From: Chitinophagia bacterium
Lineage (GTDB): Bacteria; Bacteroidota; Bacteroidia; Chitinophagales; Chitinophagaceae
Length of the DNA: 50,970 bases
Direction of reading: 5' to 3'
NCBI GenBank assembly: GCA_009920495.1
Contig: RFZW01000004.1
Span: 1 to 50,970 of the forward strand
Every line of letters starts with the position of its first letter. Position 1 is the first letter of the stretch. The translations under genes were made by a program, and so were the position numbers. Below, piece by piece: positions 17,462-38,256 of this stretch. The notes below the pieces were generated by a model that was not told the DNA's origin, ran no database searches, and worked only from the letters and a program-made list of their open reading frames with translations.

Positions 17462-18163
17462 ATGAAAAAAATCACTTTAATTTTTGCTTTTGTTTTTCTT
17501 TTTTTTCATGTGCAAGCATCTTCCTTTACAGATACCTTAAAAATTAAAAAGACAGCCGATTTTGTATTGGATGGCGCTGGCACTAATGTGCAATGGGACT
17601 CCGCTGCATGGGTTAACTTGATTCAATTGGATTCAGGAGTTCGTGGATATGATACCAAGTTTAAAGTACTCTATTCGGATGCAGGTGTGTATGTATTTTT
17701 TACAGGAAATGATAAAAAAGTGACCTCTACTTTCACAAAGGATTTTGATAATTTATTTACGGCTGATGTATTTGAAGTATTTTTTCATCCGCAACCTAAA
17801 ATGCCCATTTATCTGGAATATGAAGTGAATGCATTAAACGCAGAACTAGTTTTATTAGTGCCACATTTAGATAAAAAAGCGATGGGATGGACGCCATGGC
17901 ATTATGATGGAAAGCGCAAAGTGGTTAAAAAAGTGCAAGTGCATCAGGTTAACAATGAAATGTACAAATGGACGGCAGAATTATTTTTCCCTATTTCTCT
18001 TTTTGGGCCTTTACAAAATACGGAGTTAAAGAAAGGCGTATGTTGGAACGCTAATTTTTACAGATTGGATTATGATGCAGGTAAAATGATCAAGTTTGCA
18101 TGGTCACCTGTCAATGCAAGCTTTCATGAGTTTGATAAATATGGGGTAATACAATTTAACTAA
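17462..18163 (+). CDS. Exported carbohydrate-binding family 9-like protein
   Basis: 233 residues starting with a signal peptide, MKKITLIFAFVFLFFHVQA. The body matches the CBM9-like beta-sandwich: WDSAAWVNLIQLDSG, then KVLYSDAGVYVFFTGNDKKV, DVFEVFFHP near 105, WTAELFFPISLFG near 170 and WNANFYRLDY near 195. Such proteins are predicted to bind carbohydrate in the periplasm or on the cell surface; no catalytic residues are apparent. It is followed by a strong hairpin at 18251-18288. Confidence 0.82.
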   Translation: MKKITLIFAFVFLFFHVQASSFTDTLKIKKTADFVLDGAGTNVQWDSAAWVNLIQLDSGVRGYDTKFKVLYSDAGVYVFFTGNDKKVTSTFTKDFDNLFTADVFEVFFHPQPKMPIYLEYEVNALNAELVLLVPHLDKKAMGWTPWHYDGKRKVVKKVQVHQVNNEMYKWTAELFFPISLFGPLQNTELKKGVCWNANFYRLDYDAGKMIKFAWSPVNASFHEFDKYGVIQFN

Positions 18164-18307: not shown

Positions 18308-19381
18308 CTAATCCTTTGGTTCTTTCTTATGCCAGTAGGAAGCAAGGATGGATCCTGTAATGTTCATAAAAGGTCCAAACACCGCAGCTGCCAATCCCAT
18401 GGTTGCAGCTTTTCCTAGCTTTTCTGCAAGTCCTGATGCCAATCCGCCATTTTGCATACCCACTTCAATAGCTACAGTGCGACAGTCTCTTTCAGGCATT
18501 TTAAATAATCGAGCACTCCAATAGCCCAATAAATAGCCAAATGTATTATGAATTAAAACTATGATTATTAATAATGGTCCAATTTTTAATAAATTATCAC
18601 GGCCAGAAGCAGTAATAATAGTAATAATACAAGCGATACCTATCATGGAAACAATAGGCATGGCATCATCCAGCCATTTTGATTTTCCTTTTAATAATTT
18701 ATTGAAAATTAAACCAGCGCCAATTGGGATGATGATCATTTTATTAATGTCCCACATCATTTTTAAAACATCAATTTCTACCAATGCGCCTGCAAATAAT
18801 TTCATTAATAAAGGAGTAACAAAAGGAGCCAATAATGTAGTGATTGAAGTAATTGTAATGGATAGTGCCAAGTTTGCTTTTGCTAAATAGGACATTACGT
18901 TTGAAGCCAGACCACTAGGGGAGCAACCGATCAATATAATTCCAGCAGCTATTTCGGGAGGGAAATTAGATAAGCTTGCTAAAGTAAAACCTAAAGTAGG
19001 CATTATAGCAAATTGACTTACCACCCCTATAATTACACCTTTTGGTGTTTTAACTACTGCGGCAAAATCATTCATACTCATACAAGTTCCCATGCCAAAC
19101 ATGATGATTTGAATTAATGGTACAATGAGTCCGCCTAATTTAAATCCTCCCCATACTCTAAAATATTCAGGGTGAAACATAGACAATGATACTGCTGAAA
19201 ATATAATCATCGTAAAACTTAATCCTTGCAAATTTTCAGTTGATTTAACCCCCAGGCTTAAAGATAAAAATGCCAGGGATAATACGAGTCCTAAAAAATC
19301 AGTCACATGCATTAAATACAAAACGCCTGCGAGGGCAAATAGTCCTAAAGATAAATAGAGGAATGGTTTGTAATTTTTCAT
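18308..19381 (-). CDS. Bile acid:sodium symporter (BASS) family transporter
   Basis: Inner-membrane secondary carrier of 357 residues with about ten membrane segments. The family signature LIGCSPSGLASNVMSYLAKAN (near 150) contributes the sodium and substrate site, and a second-half repeat AIEVGMQNGGLASGLA is near 310. BASS proteins move organic anions, including keto acids. It is the last gene of the minus-strand run of exported RraA, lyase, RidA and lactonase-RidA genes, so a carrier for the acid product of that pathway is a reasonable inference. The substrate is not visible in the sequence. Confidence 0.88.
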   Translation of the reverse strand: MKNYKPFLYLSLGLFALAGVLYLMHVTDFLGLVLSLAFLSLSLGVKSTENLQGLSFTMIIFSAVSLSMFHPEYFRVWGGFKLGGLIVPLIQIIMFGMGTCMSMNDFAAVVKTPKGVIIGVVSQFAIMPTLGFTLASLSNFPPEIAAGIILIGCSPSGLASNVMSYLAKANLALSITITSITTLLAPFVTPLLMKLFAGALVEIDVLKMMWDINKMIIIPIGAGLIFNKLLKGKSKWLDDAMPIVSMIGIACIITIITASGRDNLLKIGPLLIIIVLIHNTFGYLLGYWSARLFKMPERDCRTVAIEVGMQNGGLASGLAEKLGKAATMGLAAAVFGPFMNITGSILASYWHKKEPKD

Positions 19382-19404: not shown

Positions 19405-20322
19405 TTACCAGGTTCTTTTTTCTAGAAACTTTTCAAGCGCTTCTTTGGTAATAATGGGTTCGTTAGGGTGGGCGCTTATCCAATTTAAAAAGGAAGTTTT
19501 AATTTCTTCTGTCCATTGGTTGTCAATTTGACCTGCATTGTATTTGCCTGATTTTAAAACGTCTTTCGAAAAACGATCACGTACCGAAATGAATTCTGAA
19601 GTAGCGACTACTTTTTCAGCCATATGCGCAGGTATAAATAATACGCCTTCTCGTTCAGATAATACCAAATCCCCAGGCATAACTATGGCACCACCAATTC
19701 TAATGGGCCCATTGAGTCCAATTAGAACTACTTCTTCTAAAAATGAGGGATGAAAGTCACGTACATAGGCGTTAAATCCTTTTAGTTGCGACAATCCTGA
19801 TAAATCACGCGCAGCACCGTCAAAAATAACGCCATTGCCAGTTTTATTAAAGATAGATGCCCCTAAATTGTCACCTATTAATGTGCCTTGTGCTATTTTG
19901 CCAAATGCTTCAGCAACATAAACATCTCCTTTTTGTAAAATTTGAATTGGCCAAGCATTCGTATTGCCAGTTCGGCCTTCTTTTTTACCACGTTCTTTGA
20001 TAAGTGCTTCTATATCCGGACGGGTAGGACTGTACTTTGCAGTTACTGCCCTGCCTACTACTGGAACATCATCATGTACCATTTTCCAATTTCCTTCAAA
20101 CTGATTATTGTAACCTTCGTTATGAAGTACTTGCCAGGCTTCTTCGATACCTATTTTTTTTGCTCTAGCAATTAATTCATCACTTATTTTAGGGCGACCA
20201 TCTTCAAATCTTTCCCCCTTCCAATTAGAGGTTAAATATTCTAATTCAGTTTTAGGAAATAATTGTGCTTGGGTAAAATAAAACGAACCTGTCAATAATA
20301 ATAGTATTCCTATTTTTTTCAT
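19405..20322 (-). CDS. Exported RraA-family protein
   Basis: 305 residues from the ATG at 20322, preceded by AAAAGGA and starting with a signal peptide (MKKIGILLLLTGSFYFTQAQ). An upstream ATG at 20349 would overlap the preceding gene and spoil the leader. The RraA-like core runs from about residue 75 to 270, with VGRAVTAKY, GDVYVAEAFGKIAQGTLIGDN (the G-x-x-G region), GVIFDGAARDLSGL (the family R-D pair) and GGAIVMPGDLVLSEREGVLFIP. Relatives include 4-hydroxy-4-methyl-2-oxoglutarate/oxaloacetate aldolases and the RNase E regulator RraA. An exported location excludes the RNase role and points to an aldolase, decarboxylase or isomerase acting on a sugar-derived acid. Confidence 0.8.
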   Translation of the reverse strand: MKKIGILLLLTGSFYFTQAQLFPKTELEYLTSNWKGERFEDGRPKISDELIARAKKIGIEEAWQVLHNEGYNNQFEGNWKMVHDDVPVVGRAVTAKYSPTRPDIEALIKERGKKEGRTGNTNAWPIQILQKGDVYVAEAFGKIAQGTLIGDNLGASIFNKTGNGVIFDGAARDLSGLSQLKGFNAYVRDFHPSFLEEVVLIGLNGPIRIGGAIVMPGDLVLSEREGVLFIPAHMAEKVVATSEFISVRDRFSKDVLKSGKYNAGQIDNQWTEEIKTSFLNWISAHPNEPIITKEALEKFLEKRTW

Positions 20323-20335
20323 AATTCCTTTTAAT

Positions 20336-21565
20336 TTATTTAGTCGCACTTTGTAAAACTTCTTTTAATCTTTTAGCTACAATTTTATCTTCTCCTTCTT
20401 GTAATGACCATGCAGTCATGCCAATATTATCTTTGCCACCCACTGATTCAATGGAAGGATTTCCGTTACGTAAATCCAAACGTAATTGTTCCCCAGTTTT
20501 ACTGATTTTACTATAATCCAATATAATATTTAAAGTTGGCGTAACATTACCTAAGGTTGGTGTTGAAATTGTTGTAGTTACCCCAGGAACTGATTCTGCA
20601 GCTGCTTGAATTTTTTTAATTCTTTCTAAAAATATAAGTGCTTCTGCATCATGGTCAATTTTTACAAATTCTTCCACGGCAACAAGCATGCCTAATATTT
20701 CTTCCTTGTTTACTTTCATACCACGACCAATGGTTTCCCCACGCGGAGGCATGGATAAACGGGCTGCCTTGATTAAATCTTTTTTACCCATTAATAAGCC
20801 AGCACTTTGAGGTCCTCTTAATGCTTTACCACCTGAGATGGCAACAAAATCAAAGCCCATTTCATTAAAGCGCCAAAGGTTACTCACTGGAGGTACATCC
20901 GCAGCAATATCAATCGTAGTTGGTATGCCATATTTTTTTCCAATCGCTACCCATTCTTCATGTTGTATTTGTCCTTTGTCAGATTGCACATGTAAAAAGT
21001 GCATAGCTGCTGTATTTTTATTGATGGCATTTTTTAATTCTTCCAAAGTTTCCACCATAACAATTTTTACACCCGTGTTGGTTAAAGCTTGATTATAACC
21101 AATGGCATGTGATTTTTGACAAATCACTTCCGTTTTCATACCTGTACCTTCTAATTTAGGAAGTGCTTTTACTTTAACTGGATCTAAGCCAGTTAATATT
21201 CCAGCCATGCCTAAAGTTAATGCGGAAAACGCACCACTTGTAACTACAACTGCCTCAGCCCTGGTAATTGCTGCTAATCTTTCACCCACTTTATCTTGTA
21301 AATCATCTAGCATACAAAATTTATGAGAAGCTTGTCTGATGGCCTCCACGGTTGCAGGGCGCATTAGTGATGCGGTCATTGCTGTATAAGTACCAGCAGC
21401 GTTTATAAATGTTCGAACGCCTAATTCCGCGAATAAATCACGCTTCATGGCTGCTGCTAATGGGGTAGCCATTGGTGCCGCATTAGCAGTTGAAAATCCA
21501 CCTACAATCGATGCACCAGCAAGTGGCGTGATTGATATATATTTTAACAGGTCTCTGCGTTTCAT
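20336..21565 (-). CDS. Tat-exported SelA-like/DgaE-like PLP lyase (copy 1)
   Basis: 409 residues in the SelA-like, aspartate-aminotransferase-fold PLP family that includes D-glucosaminate-6-phosphate ammonia-lyase DgaE. It starts with a twin-arginine leader, MKRRDLLKYISITPLAGAS (KRRDLLK motif). The body has RTFINAAGTYT (about 51-61), VTSGAFSAL near 108, the PLP-ring aspartate in TTIDIAADVPP (near 219), and the Schiff-base lysine K247 in SGGKALRGPQ. Inferred reaction: loss of ammonia from a 2-amino-2-deoxy sugar acid, giving a 2-keto-3-deoxy acid. Tat export fits a protein folded with its cofactor in the cytoplasm. Closely similar to the copy at 34166-35374. It sits 13 bases upstream of the RraA gene and 20 bases downstream of RidA. 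Confidence 0.85.
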   Translation of the reverse strand: MKRRDLLKYISITPLAGASIVGGFSTANAAPMATPLAAAMKRDLFAELGVRTFINAAGTYTAMTASLMRPATVEAIRQASHKFCMLDDLQDKVGERLAAITRAEAVVVTSGAFSALTLGMAGILTGLDPVKVKALPKLEGTGMKTEVICQKSHAIGYNQALTNTGVKIVMVETLEELKNAINKNTAAMHFLHVQSDKGQIQHEEWVAIGKKYGIPTTIDIAADVPPVSNLWRFNEMGFDFVAISGGKALRGPQSAGLLMGKKDLIKAARLSMPPRGETIGRGMKVNKEEILGMLVAVEEFVKIDHDAEALIFLERIKKIQAAAESVPGVTTTISTPTLGNVTPTLNIILDYSKISKTGEQLRLDLRNGNPSIESVGGKDNIGMTAWSLQEGEDKIVAKRLKEVLQSATK

Positions 21566-21585: not shown

Positions 21586-22059
21586 TTAATTAGCAATTGC
21601 AATACAGTCCATTTCAACCAATGAGTTTCCTGGAACACCACCATAAGTTGCAACAGTTGTTCTTACTGGTGGATTTGGTCCAAAGCGCCCTTTAAATACT
21701 TCGTTCATTTGTTTGTAATCACCCAGGTCAGCTAAGTATACATTTACTTTTAAAACTTTTTCCATGGAGGAACCCGCTTTAATCAACTCTTTTTCTAATT
21801 CTTTTAAAACATGATCCGTATGGGCTTTAATATCTCCTTCAAAGTGTGCCCCTTTACCTGCAACAAAAACCATTCCTGCAAATTTGGTAGCACCAGAAAA
21901 AAGTGGAATGTCCTGTTCTAATTGAACATTAAACACTTCTTTTCCATTTGCATCCACACTTGAATTTGGTGTTGCATTTGCAGCAACAGTAGCACCTGTG
22001 ATACCTAAGAATCCAGCAAACATTTTTTTAAAAATTGAGCGGCGGTTTTGAGTTTTCAT
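21586..22059 (-). CDS. Exported RidA-family enamine/imine deaminase
   Basis: 157 residues from the ATG at 22059; the longer frame from 22101 would overlap the upstream gene. The N-terminus MKTQNRRSIFKKMFAGFLG carries an RR motif followed by a hydrophobic stretch to ANA, a probable Tat leader. The mature part is a RidA/YjgF fold (about 48-157): FAGMVFVAGKG, HTDHVLKELEKELIKAGSSMEKVLKVNVYL, and RTTVATYGGVPGNSLVEMD with the conserved substrate-binding Arg of RidA. RidA proteins hydrolyse reactive enamines/imines released by PLP enzymes. Sitting directly beside an exported PLP lyase, its likely task is to finish or detoxify that reaction in the periplasm. Confidence 0.85.
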   Translation of the reverse strand: MKTQNRRSIFKKMFAGFLGITGATVAANATPNSSVDANGKEVFNVQLEQDIPLFSGATKFAGMVFVAGKGAHFEGDIKAHTDHVLKELEKELIKAGSSMEKVLKVNVYLADLGDYKQMNEVFKGRFGPNPPVRTTVATYGGVPGNSLVEMDCIAIAN

Positions 22060-22084
22060 TTTTTTTAATTTTATATTTTTAATT

Positions 22085-23650
22085 TTATTTAAGTTCCACA
22101 ATCATTTCAATTTCAACAGAAATATTATTAGGGAGTGCAGCAACACCTAATGCTGAGCGTGCGTGCTTTCCTCTTTCTCCAAAAACTTCCACCATTAAAT
22201 TGGAAAATCCATTCATCACAGCAGGCTGTTGTACAAATGTGGGATCAGAATTTACCAATCCAAGTACTTTCACAATACGCTTTACTTTATTTAAATCACC
22301 GATATAGGATTTTAAAGTAGACAACATAGATATCCCTGTAAGTCTTGCAGCTGCAGCACCTTCTTCAACAGTGACATCTTTTCCTAAATGGCCATACATT
22401 TGTCCACCACCTGGCTTATCAGGACCATGACCGGATAGGTATACTAATTTGCCTACTTGAACTTGTTTCAAATAATTGGCAATCGGTGGAACAACGGGGA
22501 TTAAAGTGATATTTGATTTTTTTATTCTTTCTTCAGGATTTACTTCCATAGGTTCATTTGAAAATACCAAACAAACAGGTGCATTTATTTTCATATCCTG
22601 ATTGGTGTTGGTTAATTTTCCAGTAGCATCATCAAATGAAAATATTTGCACCTTATCGTCATTTTGACTTGCAACAAAAACAAAATTTCCCAATGGTGTA
22701 AAACTAAAATTTCTAGGTTTTTCTGCAACAGGTTGATGATACATTTTTGTAAGTAATCCGTTTTCGCCAATTTTAAAAATGGTTAGTTCGTTACTTGTCA
22801 CTCTATTAGTTGAAATAAGCCATTTGCCACTAGGGGAAATGTGAATATCACCACTACCTTTTGAAGCTTTGGTGCTAGATGTATCTGCAATAATGCTTTG
22901 TACTTTATTAAACTTATTTTGATCTATTGCAAAAACATCCACTGTGCCTGACATTTCACTAATCAAATAGCCATGTTTGCCAGTGGCATCAAAAACAAAA
23001 TGTCTTGGACCATTCCCTGGCGTGATAGGAATGGCGGTATAGTTTTCGTCCACTAATCCATCAGCGTATATTTTATGTTGATAAATTTTATCACCTCCTA
23101 AGTCAGTCACTAATAAATAGGTGTGATCCAAACTTAATACAACATTATGTGCGTGTGAGGCTTCTTGTCTTGCTTTATCAATACTTGAGCCATTGTATTT
23201 AATTTCTTGTGCAATTGGAAGTAATGCACCGTCATCACTTGTTTTGAAAACACTCAAGCTTCCCGAAGTATAATTTGCTGTGTACACTGTTTTACTTTCG
23301 GAACGATAAGTAATAAAACAGGGACCAGCACCTTTAATGGCTGAGTTGTTAATTTTTTCAAATTCATTATTACTATTTAGCTTATATGAATTTACAGAGG
23401 AGGCATCTTTTGATCCTTCAGAAACAGCATACATTAATTTACCTTCATTTGCTAAAGTTAAATAGGAGGCGTTTGCGTTTTCTTTGGTATACAACAAACT
23501 TGGTTTTCCTGTTACTGCATTTACGGAATATACTTCAATTCCTGGATTTCCTTTTTTTGTATAGGAACCAACCACCAATTGATACTGATTGGTATCGGCA
23601 GGCGAAAAGTTTAGTAAGTTGGTAACTAATAGTGTGGCAATAAAATTCAT
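22085..23650 (-). CDS. Lactonase beta-propeller fused to a RidA domain
   Basis: 521 residues in two clear parts. Residues 22-366 form a seven-bladed propeller of the 6-phosphogluconolactonase (Pgl/lactonase) family: VVGSYTKKGNPGIEVY, ASHAHNVVLSLDHTYLLVTDLG (near 164-185), GNGPRHFVFDATGKHGYL (near 212), SGDIHISPSGKWL and KPRNFSFTPLGNFVFVASQ. Residues 377-521 form a RidA domain: YLSGHGPDK, EEGAAAARLTGISMLSTLKSYIG, and HARSALGVAALPNNISVEIE with the conserved Arg. The N-terminus (MNFIATLLVTNLLNFSPA) resembles a short signal peptide. The fusion joins lactone opening with imine hydrolysis, matching first and later steps of the proposed oxidative amino-sugar route. The frame is continuous, so the fusion is not a sequencing join. 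Confidence 0.85.
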   Translation of the reverse strand: MNFIATLLVTNLLNFSPADTNQYQLVVGSYTKKGNPGIEVYSVNAVTGKPSLLYTKENANASYLTLANEGKLMYAVSEGSKDASSVNSYKLNSNNEFEKINNSAIKGAGPCFITYRSESKTVYTANYTSGSLSVFKTSDDGALLPIAQEIKYNGSSIDKARQEASHAHNVVLSLDHTYLLVTDLGGDKIYQHKIYADGLVDENYTAIPITPGNGPRHFVFDATGKHGYLISEMSGTVDVFAIDQNKFNKVQSIIADTSSTKASKGSGDIHISPSGKWLISTNRVTSNELTIFKIGENGLLTKMYHQPVAEKPRNFSFTPLGNFVFVASQNDDKVQIFSFDDATGKLTNTNQDMKINAPVCLVFSNEPMEVNPEERIKKSNITLIPVVPPIANYLKQVQVGKLVYLSGHGPDKPGGGQMYGHLGKDVTVEEGAAAARLTGISMLSTLKSYIGDLNKVKRIVKVLGLVNSDPTFVQQPAVMNGFSNLMVEVFGERGKHARSALGVAALPNNISVEIEMIVELK

Positions 23651-23899
23651 AGCAATCGTTTATATTTTGAACCAAAAATTAATGAATAAAACGCATATTT
23701 TGTGCTGAGTAAGCGACATTTTATACACTTTTTTTAAATAGGTTCTAACCTTAGACCGCTTCCAATGAATTTAACATAGTAAAATTTGGGATGAGCGGTA
23801 TTCTTGAAAGATATTTTATTCAAGCAATTGATTTCATTTTCAAAATGTGTAGCTTTCCTATATCAAAAAACGATTTTTTATTATTTAAATTTAATTTAT

Positions 23900-25153
23900 A
23901 TGAAAAAACAGTATGCACTATTATTAGGTTTGCTTGTATTTAGCATTGGTATATTCGCCCAAAATGCAAGTCCTATCTATGATGTATTAGTTAAGGGCGG
24001 ACATGTTATTGATGCAAAAAATGGCATCGATGGTGTCATGGATATAGCCATTAAGCAAGGTAAAATATTTAAAGTTGACAAAAATTTAAACGCGAAAGAT
24101 GCTAAACAAGTAGTGGATGCTGCTGGTTTAATAGTGGCACCTGGCTTAATTGATTTGCATGCGCATGTATTTGCGGGCACACAACCTGATCATTACTTAA
24201 GTGATGGCTTAAGTGCTTTAATGCCTGATGGTTATACATTTAGAGTAGGTGTGACTACGGTGGTGGATTGTGGCGGTGCAGGTTGGAAAAACTTCGCCAC
24301 TTTCAAGAAAAATGTAATTGACATATCGCAAACAAGAGTGTTGTCTTTTTTAAATATTGTTGGTGAAGGAATGCGTGGTGGAAATTACGAACAGGATTTG
24401 GCGGAGATGAATGCTAAATTTGCTGCAAGTGCTGCTAAACAATACAGCGATTATATAGTAGGTTTTAAACTAGCCCATTTTAATGGAGAAGATTGGACCC
24501 CAACGGATAGAGTCGTGGAAGCTGGAAAATTAGCAGGACTTCCTGTAATTATTGATTTTGGTGGGTCTAAACCTAATTTACCTATCCAGGATTTATTTTT
24601 TAAACATTTACGACCAGGTGATATTTATACCCATACTTATGCTGCGCTAGGGGGTGCTCGTGAAGAGATTGTAGATGAGAAAAATAACCTAAAACTATTT
24701 GTATTAGAGGCGCAAAAAAGAGGAATTATTTTTGATGTGGGTTATGGTGGTGCAAGTTTTAATTATTCGCAAGCGATTCCAGCTTTGAAGGCTGGATTAT
24801 ATCCAAACACGATAAGTACTGACCTTCATACGGGTAGCATGAACACTTCTATGAAGGATCAATTAAGTGTCATGTCAAAATTTTTGAATATGGGTATGTC
24901 ATTAGTGGAAGTTATCAAAGCCAGTACTTGGAAACCTGCACAGGTAATTAACCGTCCATTATTAGGTAATTTATCTGAAGGTTCCGAAGCGGATATTGCC
25001 ATCTTTAATGTCAGAAAAGGCAACTTTGGATTTTATGATAAAACCGGTTACAAAGTAAAGGGGACTGAAAAATTAGAATGCGAGGTTACTATCAAGGGAG
25101 GCAAAGTATTGTATGATTTAAACGGACTTGCAAACCCTATTTATGTAAAATAA
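23900..25153 (+). CDS. Exported amidohydrolase/deacetylase (copy 1)
   Basis: 417 residues from the ATG at 23900, starting with a signal peptide (MKKQYALLLGLLVFSIGIFAQ). The open frame extends upstream to 23804, but that segment is not leader-like. The fold is a TIM-barrel metallohydrolase of the dihydroorotase-like deacetylase group often paired with DgaE-like lyases. Metal ligands visible: H87 and H89 in LIDLHAHVFAG, the bridging Lys in IVGFKLAHFNG, the His in DIYTHTY, and the Asp in ISTDLHTGS. Proposed role: removal of the N-acetyl group from an N-acetyl-hexosaminate. It is divergent from the lactonase-RidA gene and ends one base before the convergent dehydrogenase. Confidence 0.85.
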   Translation: MKKQYALLLGLLVFSIGIFAQNASPIYDVLVKGGHVIDAKNGIDGVMDIAIKQGKIFKVDKNLNAKDAKQVVDAAGLIVAPGLIDLHAHVFAGTQPDHYLSDGLSALMPDGYTFRVGVTTVVDCGGAGWKNFATFKKNVIDISQTRVLSFLNIVGEGMRGGNYEQDLAEMNAKFAASAAKQYSDYIVGFKLAHFNGEDWTPTDRVVEAGKLAGLPVIIDFGGSKPNLPIQDLFFKHLRPGDIYTHTYAALGGAREEIVDEKNNLKLFVLEAQKRGIIFDVGYGGASFNYSQAIPALKAGLYPNTISTDLHTGSMNTSMKDQLSVMSKFLNMGMSLVEVIKASTWKPAQVINRPLLGNLSEGSEADIAIFNVRKGNFGFYDKTGYKVKGTEKLECEVTIKGGKVLYDLNGLANPIYVK

Positions 25154-25154
25154 A

Positions 25155-26915
25155 TTATTTCTTATCACTCAGCACCTGAAGTTGCATTTGTTTCATCTTG
25201 ATTAATCTTAATCTTTGACGAACAATTGCAACTTCTGTTTTTGTAACAGAGTCGGAATGGTTATCAAAGCTGCGTCTTATATAGCTTAATATACTTGCAA
25301 TATCCTGATCAGGTAGTTGTGAAAATTTGGGCATCATACCAACAAAGGGCTCGCCGTTAATTTTTATAGGTCCTTCCAATCCTTTTAATAATACTGAAAT
25401 AAGGGTATCCTTATTGCCATTCACCCAGTCAGATGCAGCAATAGAAGGAAATCTGGTTCCATCGCCTTTTCCATTTTTTTGATGACACATCAAACAATTC
25501 ATTTGATATAGTTTTTCTCCACCAATAGCTACTTTGTTACGCTCTAAATTATCTAAAACGATATCTGGATTTTTAACATAAGTTCTGTTTTCTCTTTCTT
25601 TCATTTTTGCCAAACTCTTTTCTGTGAACTCTTCTTTTTTACCGTTGAATTTCACTTTCCAAATTTTTCCTTTTTCCGATTCTGAAATATATAAGGAGCC
25701 ATCTGGTCCTTGTGCTAATCCCATGGGACGATATTTTGAATCGCTTGTATTTACTAAAGTATCTCTTCCAGTAAATCCATCTGCAAACACTTCCCACTTT
25801 TGTGGTTTTCCATTAACAAAAGGAACGAATGCTATAATATATCCAGCTTGCGGATACGGCGCACGAATAGTTGATCCATGAAATGCGACAAATGCGCCAT
25901 TTTTATACCTTGCAGGGAATTGATCTCCAGTATAAAATAATAAATCATTGGGTGCAAAATGTCCAGGGAAACCAACAATCGGCGTTTCAATGGTGGTATC
26001 TGTATTTTCAATTTCACCATTACCACCATATTCAGGATTCAACATTACTTTTCCTTTCATTTGATCAAAGTAATAATAAGGCCAACCTGCATTTGCCCCT
26101 GGTTTTAATTTATAAAAAGCTTCAGAAGGTAATAAGGCACTTTGCCATGCATTATAGTATTGCGGCCAATTATTTACAAGTCCATCTCGGCCATGGCCCA
26201 CGCAATACAATGAATTATCTTGTGTATTCCAAGTCATTGCCACCAAGCTTCTTAAACCTGTTGCCACTTTTACACCATCAATAGTTCTGAATTGATTTAA
26301 TTTATTTTCATCAAACATCCACACGCCTGCGTTAGAATCTAAAATTGGGCAAGGGTTCATTCCTGGTGAACCAGGTAATCTGTTTTCCACTTGACAAGCA
26401 TCAGAAGGAGCACCAAAGGGAACAAAAATATGCCCCTTACCATCAAAGGCCAATGGTTTTCCATCATGTTCTCTTCTGCGACCGCTATCAATAACGATGT
26501 ATTCAGGTTCCCCCATGGGAACCATTGACTTAGCATCAAGTTTGTATCTGTATACCAACATTTCCGAACTCGTATATAAATAGCCGTTGTGAATACGCAT
26601 ACTAGTTGCATAAGCGCCTTCTCTAATTTTTGGACCAAAATTTTTAATGATGTCAGCGCGACCATCTTTGTTCTCATCCCTTAAAACAAAATTCATTCCG
26701 CCTTCCACAAATCGATTTCCTTTCACATAGATATCCCCATTGTCGTTCACTGCTAAGTGTCGCGCTCTGCCAGGTAAGCTATCAACTACAACGACTGCCT
26801 CAAAGCCATCTGGTAAAATTAATCCGCCATTTTTTTCACTAAAAAAATTACTACAACTCGTTAAAAATAAACAAATTGCGAAAATAAATAATTGGGGTAA
26901 AGTTTTAAGCTGCAT
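25155..26915 (-). CDS. Sorbosone/pyranose dehydrogenase-like propeller lipoprotein with cytochrome c domain
   Basis: 586 residues. A lipoprotein signal ends in LTSC (C21). Residues about 35-420 form a six-bladed propeller of the soluble aldose/sorbosone dehydrogenase type, the group including PQQ-dependent pyranose dehydrogenases: LPDGFEA, RARHLAVNDNGDIYV, TGLRSLVAMTWN, PGANAGWPYYY, YRPMGLAQGPDGSLYISE. Residues 463-550 form a c-type cytochrome with CLMCH (474-478) and a candidate axial Met in VGMMPKF (527/528). It would oxidise a sugar at C1 to a lactone and pass electrons to the respiratory chain. The cofactor is inferred from the family. The ccm genes earlier in the window would serve its haem attachment. 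Confidence 0.83.
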   Translation of the reverse strand: MQLKTLPQLFIFAICLFLTSCSNFFSEKNGGLILPDGFEAVVVVDSLPGRARHLAVNDNGDIYVKGNRFVEGGMNFVLRDENKDGRADIIKNFGPKIREGAYATSMRIHNGYLYTSSEMLVYRYKLDAKSMVPMGEPEYIVIDSGRRREHDGKPLAFDGKGHIFVPFGAPSDACQVENRLPGSPGMNPCPILDSNAGVWMFDENKLNQFRTIDGVKVATGLRSLVAMTWNTQDNSLYCVGHGRDGLVNNWPQYYNAWQSALLPSEAFYKLKPGANAGWPYYYFDQMKGKVMLNPEYGGNGEIENTDTTIETPIVGFPGHFAPNDLLFYTGDQFPARYKNGAFVAFHGSTIRAPYPQAGYIIAFVPFVNGKPQKWEVFADGFTGRDTLVNTSDSKYRPMGLAQGPDGSLYISESEKGKIWKVKFNGKKEEFTEKSLAKMKERENRTYVKNPDIVLDNLERNKVAIGGEKLYQMNCLMCHQKNGKGDGTRFPSIAASDWVNGNKDTLISVLLKGLEGPIKINGEPFVGMMPKFSQLPDQDIASILSYIRRSFDNHSDSVTKTEVAIVRQRLRLIKMKQMQLQVLSDKK

Positions 26916-27074: not shown

Positions 27075-27608
27075 ATGACTATAAACATTAATCATATTGA
27101 TGTTGAATTATTGAATCGTTTGCGAGAAAATGACACGCAAGCATTTGAAAGTATATATAAAAAATACTGGCAAAACCTTTACCTGACAGCCTTTTCCATA
27201 TTAAAAGACAAACAAACTGCGGAGGATATTATACAAGATTTATTTATACAGTTATGGAATAAACGGGCAACAATTTCAGTGACTGTTTCTCTTAATGCAT
27301 ATTTATCCACTTGTATAAAACATGAAGTTTTTAGAATCATCCGAAAACGAATAGCTGAATTAGATACCAATGAAGTTATTCAGCCAGATAAAACCTATAA
27401 TGCACAGGAGTTGATTGAATACAAGGAGTTTCTTGCACATACACAACAGCTAATTGCAAAATTATCAGTTAAGTGTCAGGAGGTTTTTGTTTTAAGTAGG
27501 GAGGATCAATATTCCCATAAAGAAATTGCAGCCCAGCTCAATATTTCTTCAAAAACCGTTGAGAATCATATCGGTAAGGCGCTCGGCCTACTAAAAAATA
27601 GCCTGTAA
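27075..27608 (+). CDS. ECF-type RNA polymerase sigma factor
   Basis: 177 residues with sigma region 2 (about 12-90; FESIYKKYWQNLYLTAFSILKD and AEDIIQDLFIQLWN) and region 4 (about 120-172; REDQYSHKEIAAQLNISSKTVENHI, a helix-turn-helix). This is the Bacteroidota FecI-like group that works with a FecR anti-sigma and an STN-domain receptor. Both lie immediately downstream: FecR at 27689 and SusC at 28901. It is divergent from the dehydrogenase lipoprotein gene; the 159 bases between them should hold the promoters of both. Confidence 0.93.
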   Translation: MTININHIDVELLNRLRENDTQAFESIYKKYWQNLYLTAFSILKDKQTAEDIIQDLFIQLWNKRATISVTVSLNAYLSTCIKHEVFRIIRKRIAELDTNEVIQPDKTYNAQELIEYKEFLAHTQQLIAKLSVKCQEVFVLSREDQYSHKEIAAQLNISSKTVENHIGKALGLLKNSL

Positions 27609-27688
27609 AATATTTTTTTAATTTTATCCCATCTCGACTAGGGGATAAGACCCTTTTTTTACTCTTATAGGGGAGAAAAAACTATATT

Positions 27689-28882
27689 TTGGATAAAAAG
27701 TCAATACTGATATTGTTAGATAGATATTTAAAAAATCAGTCTAATACAAAAGAGAAACAGAAACTAGATGAATTTTTCGAGGAAAATTTAAATTCAATTG
27801 AGGCGTCAAAGTCCATTGAAAATGTTAGTAAACTTGAAGATAAAATTTTTAATTACATCCAATTTGGTATAAAGGAGCAGGTCAAAAAAGAAAGTACTTT
27901 AAATCGCATGCCTTATTTGCAAATTGCCGCTTCCATTTTGGTTATTTTCTTATTTTCTACGTCCATTTATTTTTATAGAAGTTCATTAGCTAGTAAATCG
28001 CAATTGCCAATAGCGCAAGGTGTCGCAAAGCTTGAAGACAAACAACCTGCAAAAAATATTGCAATTTTAACTTTAGGTAATAATTCTCAAATAGTATTGG
28101 ATGAAGCATCCAGTGGCGAAATTGCGCAAGAAAGTGGGGTGAGCATTTTAAAAACAGATAAAGGAGAACTAGTTTATAAAATTAGGAATTCAAATAAGTT
28201 ATCTACCAATGATTTGAATAAGTACAACACAATTTCAACACCTATGGGCGGTAAATTTAAAGTGATATTGCCTGATGGAAGTTTGGTCGTATTGAATGCC
28301 GCCTCTACCTTAAAGTATCCTGTGCACTTTGATGAAAAATTAAGAAAAGTATCTTTTACCGGTGAAGCCTATTTCGAAATCGCGAAATTAGAAGATAAGC
28401 ATAAAAAGCGCGTTCCTTTTTATGTGTATTCTAATGATCAAATAGTAGAAGTGCTGGGAACCCATTTTAATATTAATTCTTATGACAATGAGGAATATAG
28501 CAAAACCACTTTGTTAGAAGGTTCTGTAAAAATCATCAACGAAAAATCAGCAGCTACTGCTAAAATTCTTAAGCCAGGTCAACAGGCAGTGATTAAAAGA
28601 GGGGATATTCAAACTAAAATATTGATTGCAGATGAAGCGCAAGCGTTAGCATGGAAAGACGGCTACTTTTTATTTAAAAATACAAATATCAAAGATGTTG
28701 TAAATGAATTAGAGCGATGGTATAATGTAGATATACAATATGAGGATGCCATGGAATTTGAGAGCATTACTGGCTATATCTCCAGGAATGTGAAAATTTC
28801 AAGCGTTTTAAAAATGTTACAATTAAGTGGTATTGTGAATTATGAAATAAATGGAAGTAAAATAATCATTAAAGGCTCGTAA
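27689..28882 (+). CDS. FecR-family anti-sigma factor
   Basis: 397 residues. A cytoplasmic sigma-binding N-terminus (about 1-70) precedes one membrane helix (about 76-96, LQIAASILVIFLFSTSIYFY). The periplasmic FecR domain follows (about 185-295; ISTPMGGKFKVILPDGSLVVLNAASTL region and FTGEAYFEI), then a C-terminal DUF4974-like domain with WYNVDIQYED. The start codon appears to be TTG after a GGGGAGAAAAA leader, since no ATG is available. The protein should relay ligand occupancy of the SusC receptor to the ECF sigma. Confidence 0.9.
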   Translation: MDKKSILILLDRYLKNQSNTKEKQKLDEFFEENLNSIEASKSIENVSKLEDKIFNYIQFGIKEQVKKESTLNRMPYLQIAASILVIFLFSTSIYFYRSSLASKSQLPIAQGVAKLEDKQPAKNIAILTLGNNSQIVLDEASSGEIAQESGVSILKTDKGELVYKIRNSNKLSTNDLNKYNTISTPMGGKFKVILPDGSLVVLNAASTLKYPVHFDEKLRKVSFTGEAYFEIAKLEDKHKKRVPFYVYSNDQIVEVLGTHFNINSYDNEEYSKTTLLEGSVKIINEKSAATAKILKPGQQAVIKRGDIQTKILIADEAQALAWKDGYFLFKNTNIKDVVNELERWYNVDIQYEDAMEFESITGYISRNVKISSVLKMLQLSGIVNYEINGSKIIIKGS

Positions 28883-28900
28883 AAATATAAATTTCAAAAA

Positions 28901-31900
28901 ATGAAAAAAGTCCTACTCGAATCATTAAAAAATTGGTGGAGCCAATTTATTAATGAGATTGTTGAAGCAGTCAACTTGCATCAATCAAAATTTTTATTGA
29001 AAGTGACATCGCTTGTATTTTTTGTTTTCTTATTTGTTGCAGTTAAGGCCCAAGCTGAAAATGTAAATCAGTTTGTTACTTTAAATGAAACAAATTCAAG
29101 TATCGAGAAAATTATTGTAGAAATCAGAGCGCAGACGGGTTATGATTTTTTGTATAATGCTCGTTTAATGAAGGATACCAAGCCTGTCACTATCGTTGTT
29201 AAAAATGAGTATTTTAAGAAAGTATTGGAAGCTGCTTTGAAAGATCAGCCCATTACATTCGCAATTATTGAAAATACCATCATTTTAAAAAAAGCAGAAA
29301 AGGATAGAAGAAAAAATAATACACCTTTAATTTCTGTATTACCACAGCTCACGAGTCAACCAAACATAACTCCGATAAGTCCTAAATTAGTTACTGAAGC
29401 TGCTATAAATGCGAATCGTACTATATCCGGAAAGGTGCAGGATGCTAAGGGAGAAGCGTTGGCTGGTGTAAGTGTAACCATAAAAGGGACACAAATAGGT
29501 ACCACCACAGATGCAACCGGTTTATTTTCCATTAATGCAGTTGATAATGAAGTGCTTGTTTTTTCATATGTTGGATATGCAACACAGGAGATAAATGCAA
29601 CTGGTAAAAACAATTTAACAATAAAATTAATAGAAGCGAATGCCTCCTTAAGTGAAGTGGTCGTTACCGCATTTGGTGTAAGTAAGCAAAGAAGAGGTTT
29701 GGGTTATGCAGTGCAAGAAGTAGGTGGTAAAGACTTTACAGAAGGTAGAATGAATAATATCGCTAGCGCCTTAACTGGAAAAATTGCAGGTGTGGATGCT
29801 GTGCAAACCAATGCAGGTGCTGGTGCATCAAGTAGGGTGGTTATTCGTGGTAATACTTCATTGAATGGCAACCAACAACCATTATATGTTGTTGATGGAA
29901 TGCCTATTGATAATCAAAATAGAGGACCTGTTACTTCTTCGACCCAAATAAATGTGGATAGAGGCGATGGAATTTCAAGCATTAATCCTGATGACATTGC
30001 TTCCATATCTGTATTGAAAGGGGGCGCAGCTGCTGCGCTTTATGGTAGTCAAGCGGCTAATGGTGTAGTTCTTATTACAACAAAAAAAGGAAATGTACAA
30101 AAGGGGATTGGTATTGAATATACGACTGATGTAAATCAAGGAACACCTTATATTTTTCCAAATTTTCAATACGAATACGGCCAAGGTAATGATGGTGTGA
30201 AGCCTGCAACTGCCGCCGCCGCATTAAGTTCAGGTCGTTTGTCCTATGGTGCAAAAATGGATGGCACACAAGTGATGCAATTTGATGGTGTAGCAAGACC
30301 TTATTCTCCAGTTAATGTGAAACAAAATATTTTGAATTTTTATCAACCAAGTCAAAATATATTAAATAGTATTTCATTAAGTGCAGGTTCTCAAAAAATG
30401 CAAATGCGTTTATCCTTAAGTGACTTAAGAGCAAGAGACCAACAACCAAATTCAGAATTTTTCCGTAAAACGATTAATATGAATATGCGTGCTAAAATGG
30501 GAAAAAATGATTTCATCACTTTAGAGTCAAGTGTACAATATAATATTATTAGAGGTGTGAATCGTCCTAACGTTGGTTATGCAGAATTAAATGCTGCATG
30601 GCCAGTATACTTAGCAGCCAATGTGGTGGATGTAAGAAATATGAGGGGGACTGATCCTACATTGCCTGGTATAAATGCAGCAACTGGAAGAGAGCTTGAA
30701 TGGAATCCAGTGCCTGCGGCAGTCAATCCTTATTATGCAGCTTATCAAATAAGCAATAGAGATGACCAACAAAGATTAATTGGAAGAACAAGTTTGCAAG
30801 TTAATTTGGCTAAGAATTTATTCTTCAAAGGTACCGTAGCGTTGAATTCCCTTTATTACACGGAATCAAACTATGTTCCTAAAACAAATGCATTTACGCC
30901 ATTGGGTTATTTTAGATCTGGAAAGGAGCAATCGAATAAAACAACATTCCAAGGAATCTTGAATTACAATAACCGCTTTATGAGCGATAAAATTGGCTTG
31001 AATTTAATGGCGGGTGCGAACCAAGAAAAAAATGATTACAGCAGTAATACCGCCAATGGTACACAATGGATTGTACCGAATTTGTATAGCATCACCAATT
31101 TAGTAAATAGGGATTTAGCAAATGCAAGTTCTTTATCATTAGCAGGCATTGCATCTGATGGAACTAATTCAGTGTTTAGTGAAGCAAATTTGGATTACGA
31201 TAATTTATTTTTCTTAACTGTCACAGGAAGAAATGATTGGTTCTCTGTTTTAAATCCAGGGTTTAATTCCATTTTCTATCCTTCAGTTGGCGGTAGTTTT
31301 ATATTATCTGATGTTGTTAAAATGCCTAAGTTGATCAACTTTGCAAAATTAAGATCATCTTGGGCTGAAGTAGGAAGTGCAACTGTAAATGCTGGAAGTA
31401 TTAATCAAATTTATACGATTAGCAACTTAAATGCATATGGTTTGCCAACATTAAGTAATCCAAATATATTACCTAACCCAAATATTAGACCAATTACAGC
31501 AACAACCATTGAAGGTGGTTTTGATGTAAGAATGTTGGACAATAGATTAGGTATTGATGTGAACTATTATTCTAGAAGAACCAAGAATGATATATTAGCG
31601 CCACCAATTTCAAATGCAACAGGTTATACAGCAGGTCCGCAAAATATGGGTTTGATAACCAACAAAGGATGGGAGATTACCTTAAGCGGGAATCCAATTA
31701 AGAAAACTGATTTCAGTTGGAATATCGTTTACAATTTTAGTTACAACAAAAGTGAGATCATTGAGTTGGCTCCAGGTATTGATGTGCTTACTTTAGGTAA
31801 TGCGATTGGAGGTCCAACTATTATAAATGCGGTTGGGTTACCTTATTCAACTGTGCGGGCTTATGTAATGAAAAGAGATGCAAGTGGTACGCTAATTTAT

Positions 31901-32497
31901 AACAAGGCAACTGGATATGAAGATAGAGTGTTAAAGGATTTAGGTGTGGGTAATCCACCTTATTTGATGGGATTGAGTAATACTTTCTCTTATAAGAAAT
32001 TCAGTATGACCGTGGATATAGATTCAAAATTTGGTGCAGTAGGGTATAGTAACTTAATGCAATATGCAACTAGATTTGGTTTAACCCCGGTTACCTTACC
32101 TGGTAGAGATAATCCTGCTGGATTAACTGTAACGGGTGTTGATCAAACTGGTGCTCCTTATACAAAAACATGGGCACAAGTTGATTTGGATACTTACTAC
32201 AATAACTTTGGAAGTGCTTATCCTGGCCAATTTGTATATAAAACAGATTTTGTGAAGTTGAGAAGATTAGTAATAAGGTATAATATTCCTCCTAGTACCA
32301 TTAAATTCATGAAAGTTCAGTCTGCATCTATTGGTCTTACTGGTTTAAACTTAGCTATTTTGTATCAAGACAAGTTGATCAAACAAGCTGGAATAGATCC
32401 AGAGATGCAACAAACTGTAGGAAATGCGCAAGGTAGCCAAGGTGTGGCGATGCCAACAACAAGAAATATTGGATTTACCTTGAATATAAAATTCTAA
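28901..32497 (+). CDS. SusC/RagA-family TonB-linked receptor with STN domain
   Basis: 1198-residue outer-membrane transporter. An unusually long N-region precedes the hydrophobic signal core (about 33-52, ending VKAQA). Then come an STN domain (about 60-115; NSSIEKIIVEIRAQTGYDF), a carboxypeptidase-regulatory-like domain (about 172-250; ISGKVQDAKGEALAGVSVTI), the plug with VVDGMPIDNQNRGPV and SISVLKGGAAAALYGSQAANGV, and the barrel ending in RNIGFTLNIKF. The STN domain is what receptors use to contact FecR, so the pair FecR/sigma is almost certainly its signalling partner. It forms the transport pair with the SusD-like gene downstream. Confidence 0.94.
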   Translation: MKKVLLESLKNWWSQFINEIVEAVNLHQSKFLLKVTSLVFFVFLFVAVKAQAENVNQFVTLNETNSSIEKIIVEIRAQTGYDFLYNARLMKDTKPVTIVVKNEYFKKVLEAALKDQPITFAIIENTIILKKAEKDRRKNNTPLISVLPQLTSQPNITPISPKLVTEAAINANRTISGKVQDAKGEALAGVSVTIKGTQIGTTTDATGLFSINAVDNEVLVFSYVGYATQEINATGKNNLTIKLIEANASLSEVVVTAFGVSKQRRGLGYAVQEVGGKDFTEGRMNNIASALTGKIAGVDAVQTNAGAGASSRVVIRGNTSLNGNQQPLYVVDGMPIDNQNRGPVTSSTQINVDRGDGISSINPDDIASISVLKGGAAAALYGSQAANGVVLITTKKGNVQKGIGIEYTTDVNQGTPYIFPNFQYEYGQGNDGVKPATAAAALSSGRLSYGAKMDGTQVMQFDGVARPYSPVNVKQNILNFYQPSQNILNSISLSAGSQKMQMRLSLSDLRARDQQPNSEFFRKTINMNMRAKMGKNDFITLESSVQYNIIRGVNRPNVGYAELNAAWPVYLAANVVDVRNMRGTDPTLPGINAATGRELEWNPVPAAVNPYYAAYQISNRDDQQRLIGRTSLQVNLAKNLFFKGTVALNSLYYTESNYVPKTNAFTPLGYFRSGKEQSNKTTFQGILNYNNRFMSDKIGLNLMAGANQEKNDYSSNTANGTQWIVPNLYSITNLVNRDLANASSLSLAGIASDGTNSVFSEANLDYDNLFFLTVTGRNDWFSVLNPGFNSIFYPSVGGSFILSDVVKMPKLINFAKLRSSWAEVGSATVNAGSINQIYTISNLNAYGLPTLSNPNILPNPNIRPITATTIEGGFDVRMLDNRLGIDVNYYSRRTKNDILAPPISNATGYTAGPQNMGLITNKGWEITLSGNPIKKTDFSWNIVYNFSYNKSEIIELAPGIDVLTLGNAIGGPTIINAVGLPYSTVRAYVMKRDASGTLIYNKATGYEDRVLKDLGVGNPPYLMGLSNTFSYKKFSMTVDIDSKFGAVGYSNLMQYATRFGLTPVTLPGRDNPAGLTVTGVDQTGAPYTKTWAQVDLDTYYNNFGSAYPGQFVYKTDFVKLRRLVIRYNIPPSTIKFMKVQSASIGLTGLNLAILYQDKLIKQAGIDPEMQQTVGNAQGSQGVAMPTTRNIGFTLNIKF

Positions 32498-32516
32498 CTC
32501 AATTAAATTTAAGAAT

Positions 32517-34066
32517 ATGAAAAAGATACTTCCTGTAAAAAAGGAAGTTTAACTGACATCAATATAAATCCTGATGCAATTACATATATAGTCCCAGACT
32601 ATACTTTTACTGCTGCTGCACTCGCAAGTGTTCCTGGACAAAATTACCGTGCACTTGGTCAAGGGTTGCAATATTTTTCAACCTATAAGGAAGTACCCGC
32701 AGTAGGTGATAAATTTTACAACTTCAATGGTACTGCTGGAACATTTGCTATTTATAATAATCAATGGAATAGATTGGTACAATTAAAAGCCAAATTAACT
32801 TCAGCGGATGATGTGAATAAAAAAGCAGCATGTGAAATTTTAAGAATTTTGGCTTTTCACCAACAAACTGATTTGATGGGTGACATGCCTTATTCCGAAG
32901 CAATGAAAGGAATAGATGGATTGAAGCCAAAATATGATACACAAAAATCAATTTATGCTGCAATGCTTTCTGAATTAGAAGCTGCATTAAAATCAATGGA
33001 TCCCTCAAAAGCTAATGTATTTGGCACTGCAGATCCTTATTTTAAAGGGGATGTAACTAAATGGAAAAAATTTGGATACACATTAATGCTTCGTTTGGGT
33101 ATGCGTATGTCAGAAGTAGATGCAGCGACTGCCAAAGCTTGGGTGGAGAAAGCGGCTGCTGGCGGGGTAATGATAGACAATGCGGATATTGCATATATAA
33201 AATTTGCGAATGTTACAGGGCAATTTAATCCAAGAGTAGACGGTATGATTGCAGGTGACTTTACTAGCCCCGGCGGAGATAATGTGGAGGGAAGTAAATG
33301 GTCTGCTAAATTTATTGATCATTTAAAAGCGACAGCTGATCCAAGATTGCCAGTACTATCGGTAGTTTGGGTGCCAACAGGTGGTACATACACTGCTGAT
33401 AACTCAGCAGCAAAACAAAGAGGGATGATCAATGGTAGTATTAATACAAAACCTACGGATTTTGATACTTATTCAGAACCTTCTTTATTGTATATTGACA
33501 GAGGTTCGCCAATAATTACCATGGGACCTGCGGAATCATATTTATTATTATGTGAAGCAGCAGTAAGAGGTTGGACAGTAGGTTTCACAGCTGAAGACGC
33601 ATACAATAAAGCGGTTCGTGCAGCAATGGCGCAATGGGCTTTATGGCCTTCTGTTGCACCTCACTCCGGTGTAATTTCAACAGCTTCTGTAGATGCTTAT
33701 TTGTTAGCAAATCCATTTAAAACAACTGGTACACTTGATCAAAAAATCGAACAAATTGCTACTCAAAAATGGGTTTCTTTGTTAGGTGATGATTATGAAG
33801 TGTATTCAGATTGGAGAAGGGTAAAATATCCAATATTTAATTATGCGAACTGGAAATCAACTTCAGGCGCATTAGTTTCTTATCCTGGAAATGTAACCGC
33901 AGGAAAAATGTGGAGAAGGTTCTCGCTTCCTTTGGATGAGCGTAATGTAAATACAGCTAATTATAATGAGGCTATTAAAAGACAAAGTTTTTCTGAAGAA
34001 ACCGTTGACTTATTGCAGGGCAGAATGTGGTGGGACGTAGGTCCAAAAACAGGACAACAAAATTAG
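32517..34066 (+). pseudogene. SusD/RagB-family lipoprotein with damaged signal peptide
   Basis: The body is a nearly complete SusD_2-type nutrient-binding protein: NNQWNRLVQLKAKL, ILRILAFHQQTDLMGDMPYSEA, ANVFGTADPYFKGDVTKWKKF, LLLCEAAVRGW, WVSLLGDDYEVYSDWRR. The expected start ATG at 32517 reads only MKKILPVKKEV and then stops. From 32531 another frame reads SCKKGSLTDININPDA, which is the lipobox cysteine and mature N-terminus. The hydrophobic core of the signal peptide, some 12-16 codons, is missing and the frame is shifted. The only intact reading frame starts at a TTG (32666) with no leader. As written the product could not be lipidated at the outer membrane, so SusC would lack its lid. 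Confidence 0.85.
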
Positions 34067-34165: not shown

Positions 34166-35374
34166 ATGAAAAGGAGAGACTTATTAAAATACGCAAGTAT
34201 GTTGCCTATTGGTACAGGTGTTGCTGCAGGCTTGATTCCAACTAAAGCATTCGCGAAAGCCCCGGCTGCTAAAAGAGATATATTAAAAGAGTTGGGGATT
34301 AGAACATTTGTAAATGCTGCGGGTACTTATACCGCGATGACTGCATCATTAATGCATGATGAAGTAGTAGAAACAATTAAGCAAGGCGCAAAGCAATTTG
34401 CCATGTTAGACGAGGTACAAGATAAGGTGGGTGAAAAAATTGCCGAATTATGTCATGCAGAAGCAGCAACAGTTACTGCAGGATGTTGGAGTGCATTGGT
34501 GTTAGGAACCGCAGGCGTATTAACAGGAATGGATATGAAAAAAGTGGCACAACTACCTGATGTAAAAGGAATGAAAGCCGAAGTGATTGTGCAAAAAGGG
34601 CATAACATTGGCTATGTTCATGCATTAACAAACACAGGTGCTATCATTGTTGAAATTGAAACAGTGCAAGAGTTGGAAAAAGCAATCAATGAAAAAACGG
34701 CCATGATGTGGTTTTTGAATTCATACGCGCCCATGGGAAAAATTCAACATGAAGAATGGGTGTCGATTGCTAAAAAACATAAAATTCCAACGATGATTGA
34801 TATGGCTGCAGATGTGCCACCAGTATCAAATTTATGGAAGTACAATGACCTTGGATTCGATTTAGTATGTGTGTCGGGTGGAAAAGCAATGCGTGGTCCT
34901 CAAAGTGCAGGAATATTAATGGGTAAAAAAGAATTGATTGCTGCAGCTAGATTAAGCGCGCCTCCGCGTGGTGGAAATATTGGTAGAGGAATGAAAGTAA
35001 ATAAGGAGGAAGTATTGGGCATGTATGTGGCGCTTGAAAAGTACATTAATCAAGACCACGATGCAGAATGGAAGATGTGGGAATCGAAAATTGATACCAT
35101 TGCCAAATCTGTTGACTCAATTGAAGGCGTAAAAATTGAAATTTCGGTTCCACCTATTGCCAATCATACGCCACTTTTATTTATAAGCTGGGATGAGTCT
35201 AAAGTAAAAACAAGTAATAAGGACTTAATGTTAAAATTAAGAAATGGAAGTCCTTCCATTGAGGTTATGGCAAATGGCACAGGTATAAACATTACCGTGT
35301 TTATGTTACAAGATGGAGAGGAGAAAATTGTAGCAAAGCGCGTAAGGGAAGAATTATTATTAGCAAAAGCTTAA
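34166..35374 (+). CDS. Tat-exported SelA-like/DgaE-like PLP lyase (copy 2)
   Basis: 402 residues, closely similar along its whole length to the copy at 20336-21565. Twin-arginine leader MKRRDLLKYASMLPIGTG, then RTFVNAAGTYTAMTASLMH, the aspartate in TMIDMAADVPP, Schiff-base lysine K240 in SGGKAMRGPQSAG and PPRGGNIGRGMKVNKEE. It begins a run of enzymes (lyase, broken amidohydrolase, kinase, aldolase, MFS carrier, third lyase) with short gaps. Proposed reaction as for copy 1. Duplicated lyases may differ in sugar configuration or be redundant. Confidence 0.85.
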   Translation: MKRRDLLKYASMLPIGTGVAAGLIPTKAFAKAPAAKRDILKELGIRTFVNAAGTYTAMTASLMHDEVVETIKQGAKQFAMLDEVQDKVGEKIAELCHAEAATVTAGCWSALVLGTAGVLTGMDMKKVAQLPDVKGMKAEVIVQKGHNIGYVHALTNTGAIIVEIETVQELEKAINEKTAMMWFLNSYAPMGKIQHEEWVSIAKKHKIPTMIDMAADVPPVSNLWKYNDLGFDLVCVSGGKAMRGPQSAGILMGKKELIAAARLSAPPRGGNIGRGMKVNKEEVLGMYVALEKYINQDHDAEWKMWESKIDTIAKSVDSIEGVKIEISVPPIANHTPLLFISWDESKVKTSNKDLMLKLRNGSPSIEVMANGTGINITVFMLQDGEEKIVAKRVREELLLAKA

Positions 35375-37597: not shown

Positions 37598-37599
37598 TT

Positions 37600-38244: not shown

Positions 38245-38256
38245 TCAGTTTTGATA

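Follow-up and report, generated by a model that had tools for sequence, protein, structure and literature searches.

Described systems and the fusion gene

Seven-bladed propeller lactonases such as PpgL, the periplasmic gluconolactonase of Pseudomonas aeruginosa (PDB ID: 6igb), and BF1038 of Bacteroides fragilis (PDB ID: 3scy) are stand-alone proteins without a Rid domain, and the Rid1-type proteins PA0814 (PDB ID: 9bk9) and Atu1372 (PDB ID: 3d01) are likewise stand-alone chains. Here we describe a gene in which a lactonase and a RidA domain are joined in one reading frame, found on a 50,970-nucleotide stretch (contig RFZW01000004.1, hereafter the window) of a metagenome-assembled genome (MAG) of a Chitinophagia bacterium. 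The N-terminal half of the encoded protein shares its fold and family with PpgL and BF1038 (30–39% identity, target TM-score about 0.9), and the Rid domain has the fold of PA0814 and Atu1372, keeps the Arg and Glu of the imine-hydrolysing Rid groups and makes up the C-terminal half of what is probably an exported enzyme. The Cu/Zn-SOD-SGL lactonase of Deinococcus radiodurans (PMC12362111) is also a natural propeller-lactonase fusion, with both domains shown to be active, but it has a six-bladed SGL fold and a different partner domain.

The chemistry encoded around the fusion also has a described counterpart. In the oxidative chitin (N-acetylglucosamine, GlcNAc) pathway of the ong cluster from Pseudoalteromonas prydzensis, an N-acetyl aldonate is deacetylated and then deaminated by a pyridoxal 5′-phosphate (PLP) enzyme to 2-keto-3-deoxygluconate, and the RidA protein OngD is essential, in a role left unexplained (PMC9537276). 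The cluster in the window resembles ong in its predicted deacetylation and PLP deamination steps and in having RidA in the cluster, here as two Rid domains; for ong, no dehydrogenase or lactonase step and no fusion are reported, whereas the cluster here is predicted to have both steps.

We propose, with a probability of about 0.58, that the fusion is a bifunctional enzyme, probably in the periplasm, that takes part in an oxidative and phosphorylation-free catabolism of N-acetyl amino sugars. The sequence-only reading of this DNA presented the architecture as one not known to be described, and we found no paper on it in the openly licensed literature (the InterPro and UniProt architecture tables lay outside the search); the same literature held nothing direct on periplasmic or exported RidA, or on an oxidative GlcNAc route in the periplasm of Bacteroidetes. 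The two domain families are themselves well known; it is the architecture and the pathway layout that are apparently undescribed.

Both halves of the fusion are conserved

The gene and its two halves are as follows.

22085–23650, minus strand: lactonase–RidA fusion, a seven-bladed propeller plus Rid1-type RidA, 521 amino acids (open reading frame, Pfam, AlphaFold2/Foldseek, 32 distinct fusion sequences)
22553–23587, minus strand: lactonase half, residues 22–366 (Pfam, invariant columns, aligned PDB lactonases)
22088–22552, minus strand: linker and Rid half, residues 367–521 (PF14588; N480, R498 and E513 invariant)

The open reading frame runs continuously from ATG to TAA with no internal break, on the minus strand, which had not been specified before. 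Residues 25–363 match PF10282 (Lactonase, E = 1.3e-87, 294.6 bits against a gathering score of 21.7) over profile positions 2–344 of 344, and the C-terminal half matches both PF14588 (YjgF_endoribonc, residues 375–512, E = 1.7e-19, 70.5 bits against a cut-off of 35), which we take to be the Rid1 group, and PF01042 (residues 389–519, E = 4.9e-13), each above its gathering score. An AlphaFold2 model of the monomer, built from 32 aligned relatives, has a mean predicted local distance difference test score (pLDDT) of 89.6, and Foldseek places its N-terminal half with the seven-bladed lactonases 3scy and 6igb and its C-terminal half with the Rid proteins 3d01 and 9bk9. Reading frame, Pfam and model thus agree with the earlier assignment of a lactonase propeller and RidA to one polypeptide.

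An alignment of 33 rows (32 distinct fusions and a duplicate of the window's own sequence) contains 134 invariant columns. In the lactonase half, these include HAH 166–168, PRH 215–217, E232, DIH 268–270, NR 282–283 and PRNF 312–315, motifs that are also present in the aligned PDB lactonases 3scy, 3fgb and 4qrj. In the Rid half, N480, R498 and E513 are invariant in every row, the window included, and R498 is the conserved arginine to which the sequence-only reading had pointed. This arginine sets RidA and Rid1–3, the known or predicted imine hydrolysers, apart from Rid4–7 (PMC4433059); the Rid half keeps the Arg (R498) and Glu (E513) that mark the imine-hydrolysing groups, loss of the Arg being the mark of Rid4–7.

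Pairwise dN/dS (nonsynonymous to synonymous substitution rate) values are mostly 0.03–0.1 in each half; several pairs approach saturation at synonymous sites, which makes the values approximate. Among the genus's more distant sequences, the Rid half is 87–94% identical and the lactonase half 73–80%. Judged from these comparisons, both halves are under strong purifying selection and look functional in their predicted activities, and neither domain has lost its family residues, a weakness that the sequence-only reading had named as a possible refutation.

The fusion is rare and appears to have arisen once

Homologues were sought among close relatives, in the order and in a GTDB-wide contig set. 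After removal of duplicates, 32 distinct full-length fusions from independent assemblies were recovered, from 98 to about 53% identical, in the window's genus, in genus g69 of the same family, in other Chitinophagaceae-type MAGs and in a Cytophagaceae-type clade. An even draw of 396 genomes from the phylum gave no further fusion at E ≤ 1e-80, so the architecture is rare, and among 399 genomes of the order it was found, besides the window, in genus g69 only. These two draws rule out the fusion as a general Bacteroidota architecture.

Maximum-likelihood trees were consistent for the two domains. Every fused Rid half falls on one side of a single branch (support 97/91), and the fused lactonase halves form one clade (100/100) whose sole stand-alone member is from genome G005. 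A second candidate stand-alone lactonase, in G018, was rejected: its match ends at the contig end and the Rid half sits on another contig, and it was counted as a fusion split over two contigs. The simplest reading of both trees is that the fusion arose once; it is a real gene, apparently of a single origin, that several freshwater groups of Bacteroidota have retained.

Gene cluster and proposed pathway

The genes around the fusion that would supply the remaining steps are these.

25155–26915, minus strand: GSDH-type sugar dehydrogenase fused to cytochrome c, lipoprotein-like signal (PF07995 and PF00034)
23804–25153, plus strand: amidohydrolase/deacetylase of PRK09237/EF_0837 type, signal peptide (NF006689)
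21586–22101, minus strand: second, separate RidA (PF01042), twin-arginine translocation (Tat)-like signal (Pfam; RR in relatives)
20336–21565, minus strand: SELA1, SelA/DgaE-like PLP ammonia-lyase, Tat-like signal (TIGR01437, 7lc0)
19405–20349, minus strand: RraA-type aldolase homologue with signal peptide (PF03737)
18308–19381, minus strand: BASS/PanS-type transporter homologue, candidate 2-keto-acid importer (PF01758; PanS model)
36590–38244, plus strand: DgoK (2-keto-3-deoxygalactonokinase) and KDPG/KHG aldolase homologues (PF05035; PF01081)

In the proposed pathway, the GSDH–cytochrome c dehydrogenase would oxidise C1 of the sugar, giving a lactone that the propeller half of the fusion would open to the N-acetyl aldonate. 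The adjoining amidohydrolase would then remove the acetyl group, and the Tat-type SelA/DgaE-like PLP enzyme would catalyse an elimination to an enamine/imine, which the Rid half, along with the neighbouring second RidA, would hydrolyse to ammonia and a 2-keto-3-deoxy sugar acid. For this acid there are two candidate fates: cleavage by the RraA-type aldolase with uptake through the BASS carrier, or import followed by phosphorylation by DgoK and cleavage by the KDPG aldolase. Every activity here is predicted from family membership, and we infer the exact sugar, the localisation and any benefit of tethering the two halves. Aldonate and lactone interconvert, and the ring opens spontaneously under alkaline conditions (PMC12017989); an enzyme for this step might therefore be of greatest use at neutral or acidic pH.

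The supporting matches differ in strength. The deacetylase scores above the NF006689 cut-off (E = 1e-130) and has 2ogj and 8je0 as relatives, while the BASS protein falls below the cut-off of the PanS model (E = 4e-72). SELA1 matches TIGR01437 at E = 9e-49, below the model cut-off, and scores under the cut-offs of the named DgaE models; it is a full-length homologue of DGL (PDB ID: 7lc0, E = 1e-29) with the position of the PLP lysine aligned, although the DGL substrate is phosphorylated and SELA1 has a Tat-type signal. A twin-arginine motif lies near the N-terminus in 19 of 19 SELA1 homologues, and RR occurs within the first 40 residues in all 28 homologues of the second RidA. The listed reading frame of this RidA opens with an upstream TTG; translation probably begins at the ATG of MKTQNRRS, and homologues in relatives have 157 residues.

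The order GSDH–cytochrome c (GSDHC), deacetylase, fusion, RidA, SELA1, RraA and BASS is conserved in the window's genus; genus g69 has the same order with the BASS gene relocated, and two further loci (L046 and L148) have most of the cluster. Across 101 close genomes searched in the window's genus, SELA1 (E ≤ 1e-60) was present in exactly the 11 that carry the fusion, G018 included, these 11 being kin and not independent events. The G005 lactonase, which belongs to the fusion clade but lacks the Rid half, lies in the same chromosomal neighbourhood, beside SET-domain and nucleotide-sugar genes, in a genome without a SelA homologue. This single case fits a joint loss of the Rid half and the lyase.

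Related clusters encode a separate Rid and an SGL lactonase

Six genomes of the family (G149, G208, G933, G976, G878 and G426) have a like cluster without the fusion. In all six, a separate Rid with a signal peptide, 64–69% identical to the fused Rid half, is encoded directly after the GSDH–cytochrome c gene, and each genome also encodes an exported SMP-30/gluconolactonase (SGL), a lactonase of another propeller fold (identity checked by Pfam PF08450 in four of the six). The SGL gene lies inside the cluster in five genomes; in G878 it belongs to a second sub-cluster with SelA and deacetylase genes, at a distance of several kilobases. With an SGL query at E ≤ 1e-30, a match was found in 6/6 unfused genomes versus 0/22 fusion genomes, a count uncorrected for relatedness and in which many of the fusion genomes are incomplete. 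This exchange suggests that the pathway requires a lactonase and a Rid protein, supplied either as the fusion or as SGL plus a separate Rid.

Two of the unfused clusters hold a GH20 hexosaminidase gene between the deacetylase and SGL genes, which points to N-acetylhexosamines as the feedstock; GH20 is present in all 19 fusion genomes tested, and is uninformative there.

A wider reading, which we advance more tentatively than the role of the fusion itself, is that these clusters encode an undescribed, largely periplasmic, phosphorylation-free oxidative N-acetylhexosamine pathway in Bacteroidota. It would comprise the GSDH–cytochrome c dehydrogenase, lactonase, deacetylase, Tat-exported PLP ammonia-lyase, exported RidA, aldolase and keto-acid importer, with lactonase and RidA fused in one lineage and RidA acting as a dedicated step, not as a housekeeping detoxifier. 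If so, PLP chemistry and imine hydrolysis would take place outside the cytoplasm, and freshwater Bacteroidota would have an additional amino-sugar route. The essential RidA of the one characterised oxidative GlcNAc pathway lends interest to the idea of a dedicated pathway enzyme, which the fused lineage and its relatives with a separate in-cluster RidA make directly testable.

Weighing the proposed role

Several observations weigh against a role for the fusion in periplasmic amino-sugar catabolism. The main limit on the claim is set by fusion-bearing genomes in which a search at E ≤ 1e-20 found no SelA homologue, namely nine Cytophagaceae-type MAGs and two others (G831 and G832); the Cytophagaceae-type genomes, moreover, give only a shorter GSDH match from which the cytochrome c part is absent. 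An obligate link between the fusion and a SelA-type lyase is ruled out by these genomes. The sequence-only reading had the fusion connect the dehydrogenase and lyase steps: the Chitinophagaceae context, with its GSDH–cytochrome c, deacetylase and PLP lyase genes, supports this well, but the link does not extend to the lyase-free genomes, and deacetylation would fall between the two steps. Where the lyase is absent, either another PLP enzyme provides the imine or the Rid half acts otherwise. Several Cytophagaceae-type genomes have a class-V aminotransferase-type gene close by on the opposite strand, a candidate imine source in that clade. At three Cytophagaceae-type loci (L047, L051 and L056), where the fusion comes after RND efflux genes, the class-V aminotransferase close to it on the opposite strand looks exported.

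The remaining points on this side concern the cluster and its comparison with ong. The second RidA is encoded next to the fusion, whose Rid half may be partly redundant; no GH20 is found within the window; and action of this type of deacetylase on amino-sugar acids is itself a prediction. The ong route is cytoplasmic, whereas the deacetylase and lyase here carry predicted export-type signals; its deaminase OngC is of fold type III, whereas the lyase here is SelA/DgaE-like; and its deacetylase and transporter come from other families. Export of the fusion, asserted in the sequence-only reading, is favoured by a hydrophobic N-terminal stretch conserved across loci, but the first 18 residues contain no Lys or Arg in 32 of the 33 fusion rows. 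This is unusual for a signal peptide, and we call the protein probably exported and likely periplasmic.

The strongest alternative, which we regard as unlikely, is that the Rid half serves chiefly for trimerisation or as a general scavenger of imines, in a protein that is functionally a lactonase of ordinary sugar lactones and whose place in a lyase cluster is secondary. The typically trimeric state of Rid proteins (PMC4433059), the Cytophagaceae-type clade with the fusion and a GSDH homologue but no lyase, and the separate RidA beside the fusion would all suit such a role. A passive or general function is harder to reconcile with catalytic-type Arg, Glu and Asn residues that never vary in the 33 rows, with a Rid half constrained at least as strongly as the lactonase by both identity and dN/dS, or with the close separate Rid in the lyase cluster of six genomes.

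Less probable still is that the cluster degrades another substrate, an acylated hydroxy acid or a different amino acid for example, and that the lactonase acts on a lactone formed along that route. The deacetylase resembles the 2ogj family, for which ester hydrolysis is reportedly known, and SelA-like enzymes are diverse, with SELA1 under the cut-offs of the DgaE models; set against this, the clusters contain GSDH, KDPG aldolase, DgoK, GH20 and lactonases of two kinds, a set of genes indicative of sugar acids.

An assembly or annotation artefact, which the sequence-only reading had feared should the fusion be confined to one contig, might be suspected in a source MAG of 348 contigs and 78% completeness, but misassembly is ruled out by the independent full-length copies, some on contigs of more than 300 kb, and by the single clade that the fused halves form on each domain tree.

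Other features of the window

Further genes on both sides of the cluster are listed below.

17462–18163, plus strand: exported CBM9-like carbohydrate-binding protein (PF16011; near the BASS gene)
27075–34066, plus strand: sigma factor, FecR-like, SusC and SusD-like uptake genes (open reading frames; SusD Pfam)
34166–35374, plus strand: SELA2, second Tat-type SelA/DgaE-like lyase, 58% identical to SELA1
35392–36536, plus strand: second deacetylase, broken (two open reading frames, about 28 codons missing)
38251–39522, plus strand: MFS transporter (PF07690)
39569–41176, plus strand: SELA3, third Tat-type SelA/DgaE-like homologue with an extra C-terminal region

The CBM9-like protein recurs beside both fused and unfused clusters, and the sigma factor, FecR-like, SusC and SusD-like genes are kept beside the cluster at three loci (L032, L037 and L044). 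The second deacetylase is intact in relatives (L175–L178), and the broken copy is either a pseudogene or an assembly error in the source MAG. SELA3 has 535 residues, about 110 of them additional at the C-terminus, and long homologues occur in several genera. A DUF4440 protein (41279–41716, plus strand) likewise recurs beside fused and unfused clusters, and at 42170–42836 (minus strand) a small HigB-like open reading frame and a helix-turn-helix protein resemble, by eye, a HigBA-like toxin–antitoxin pair.
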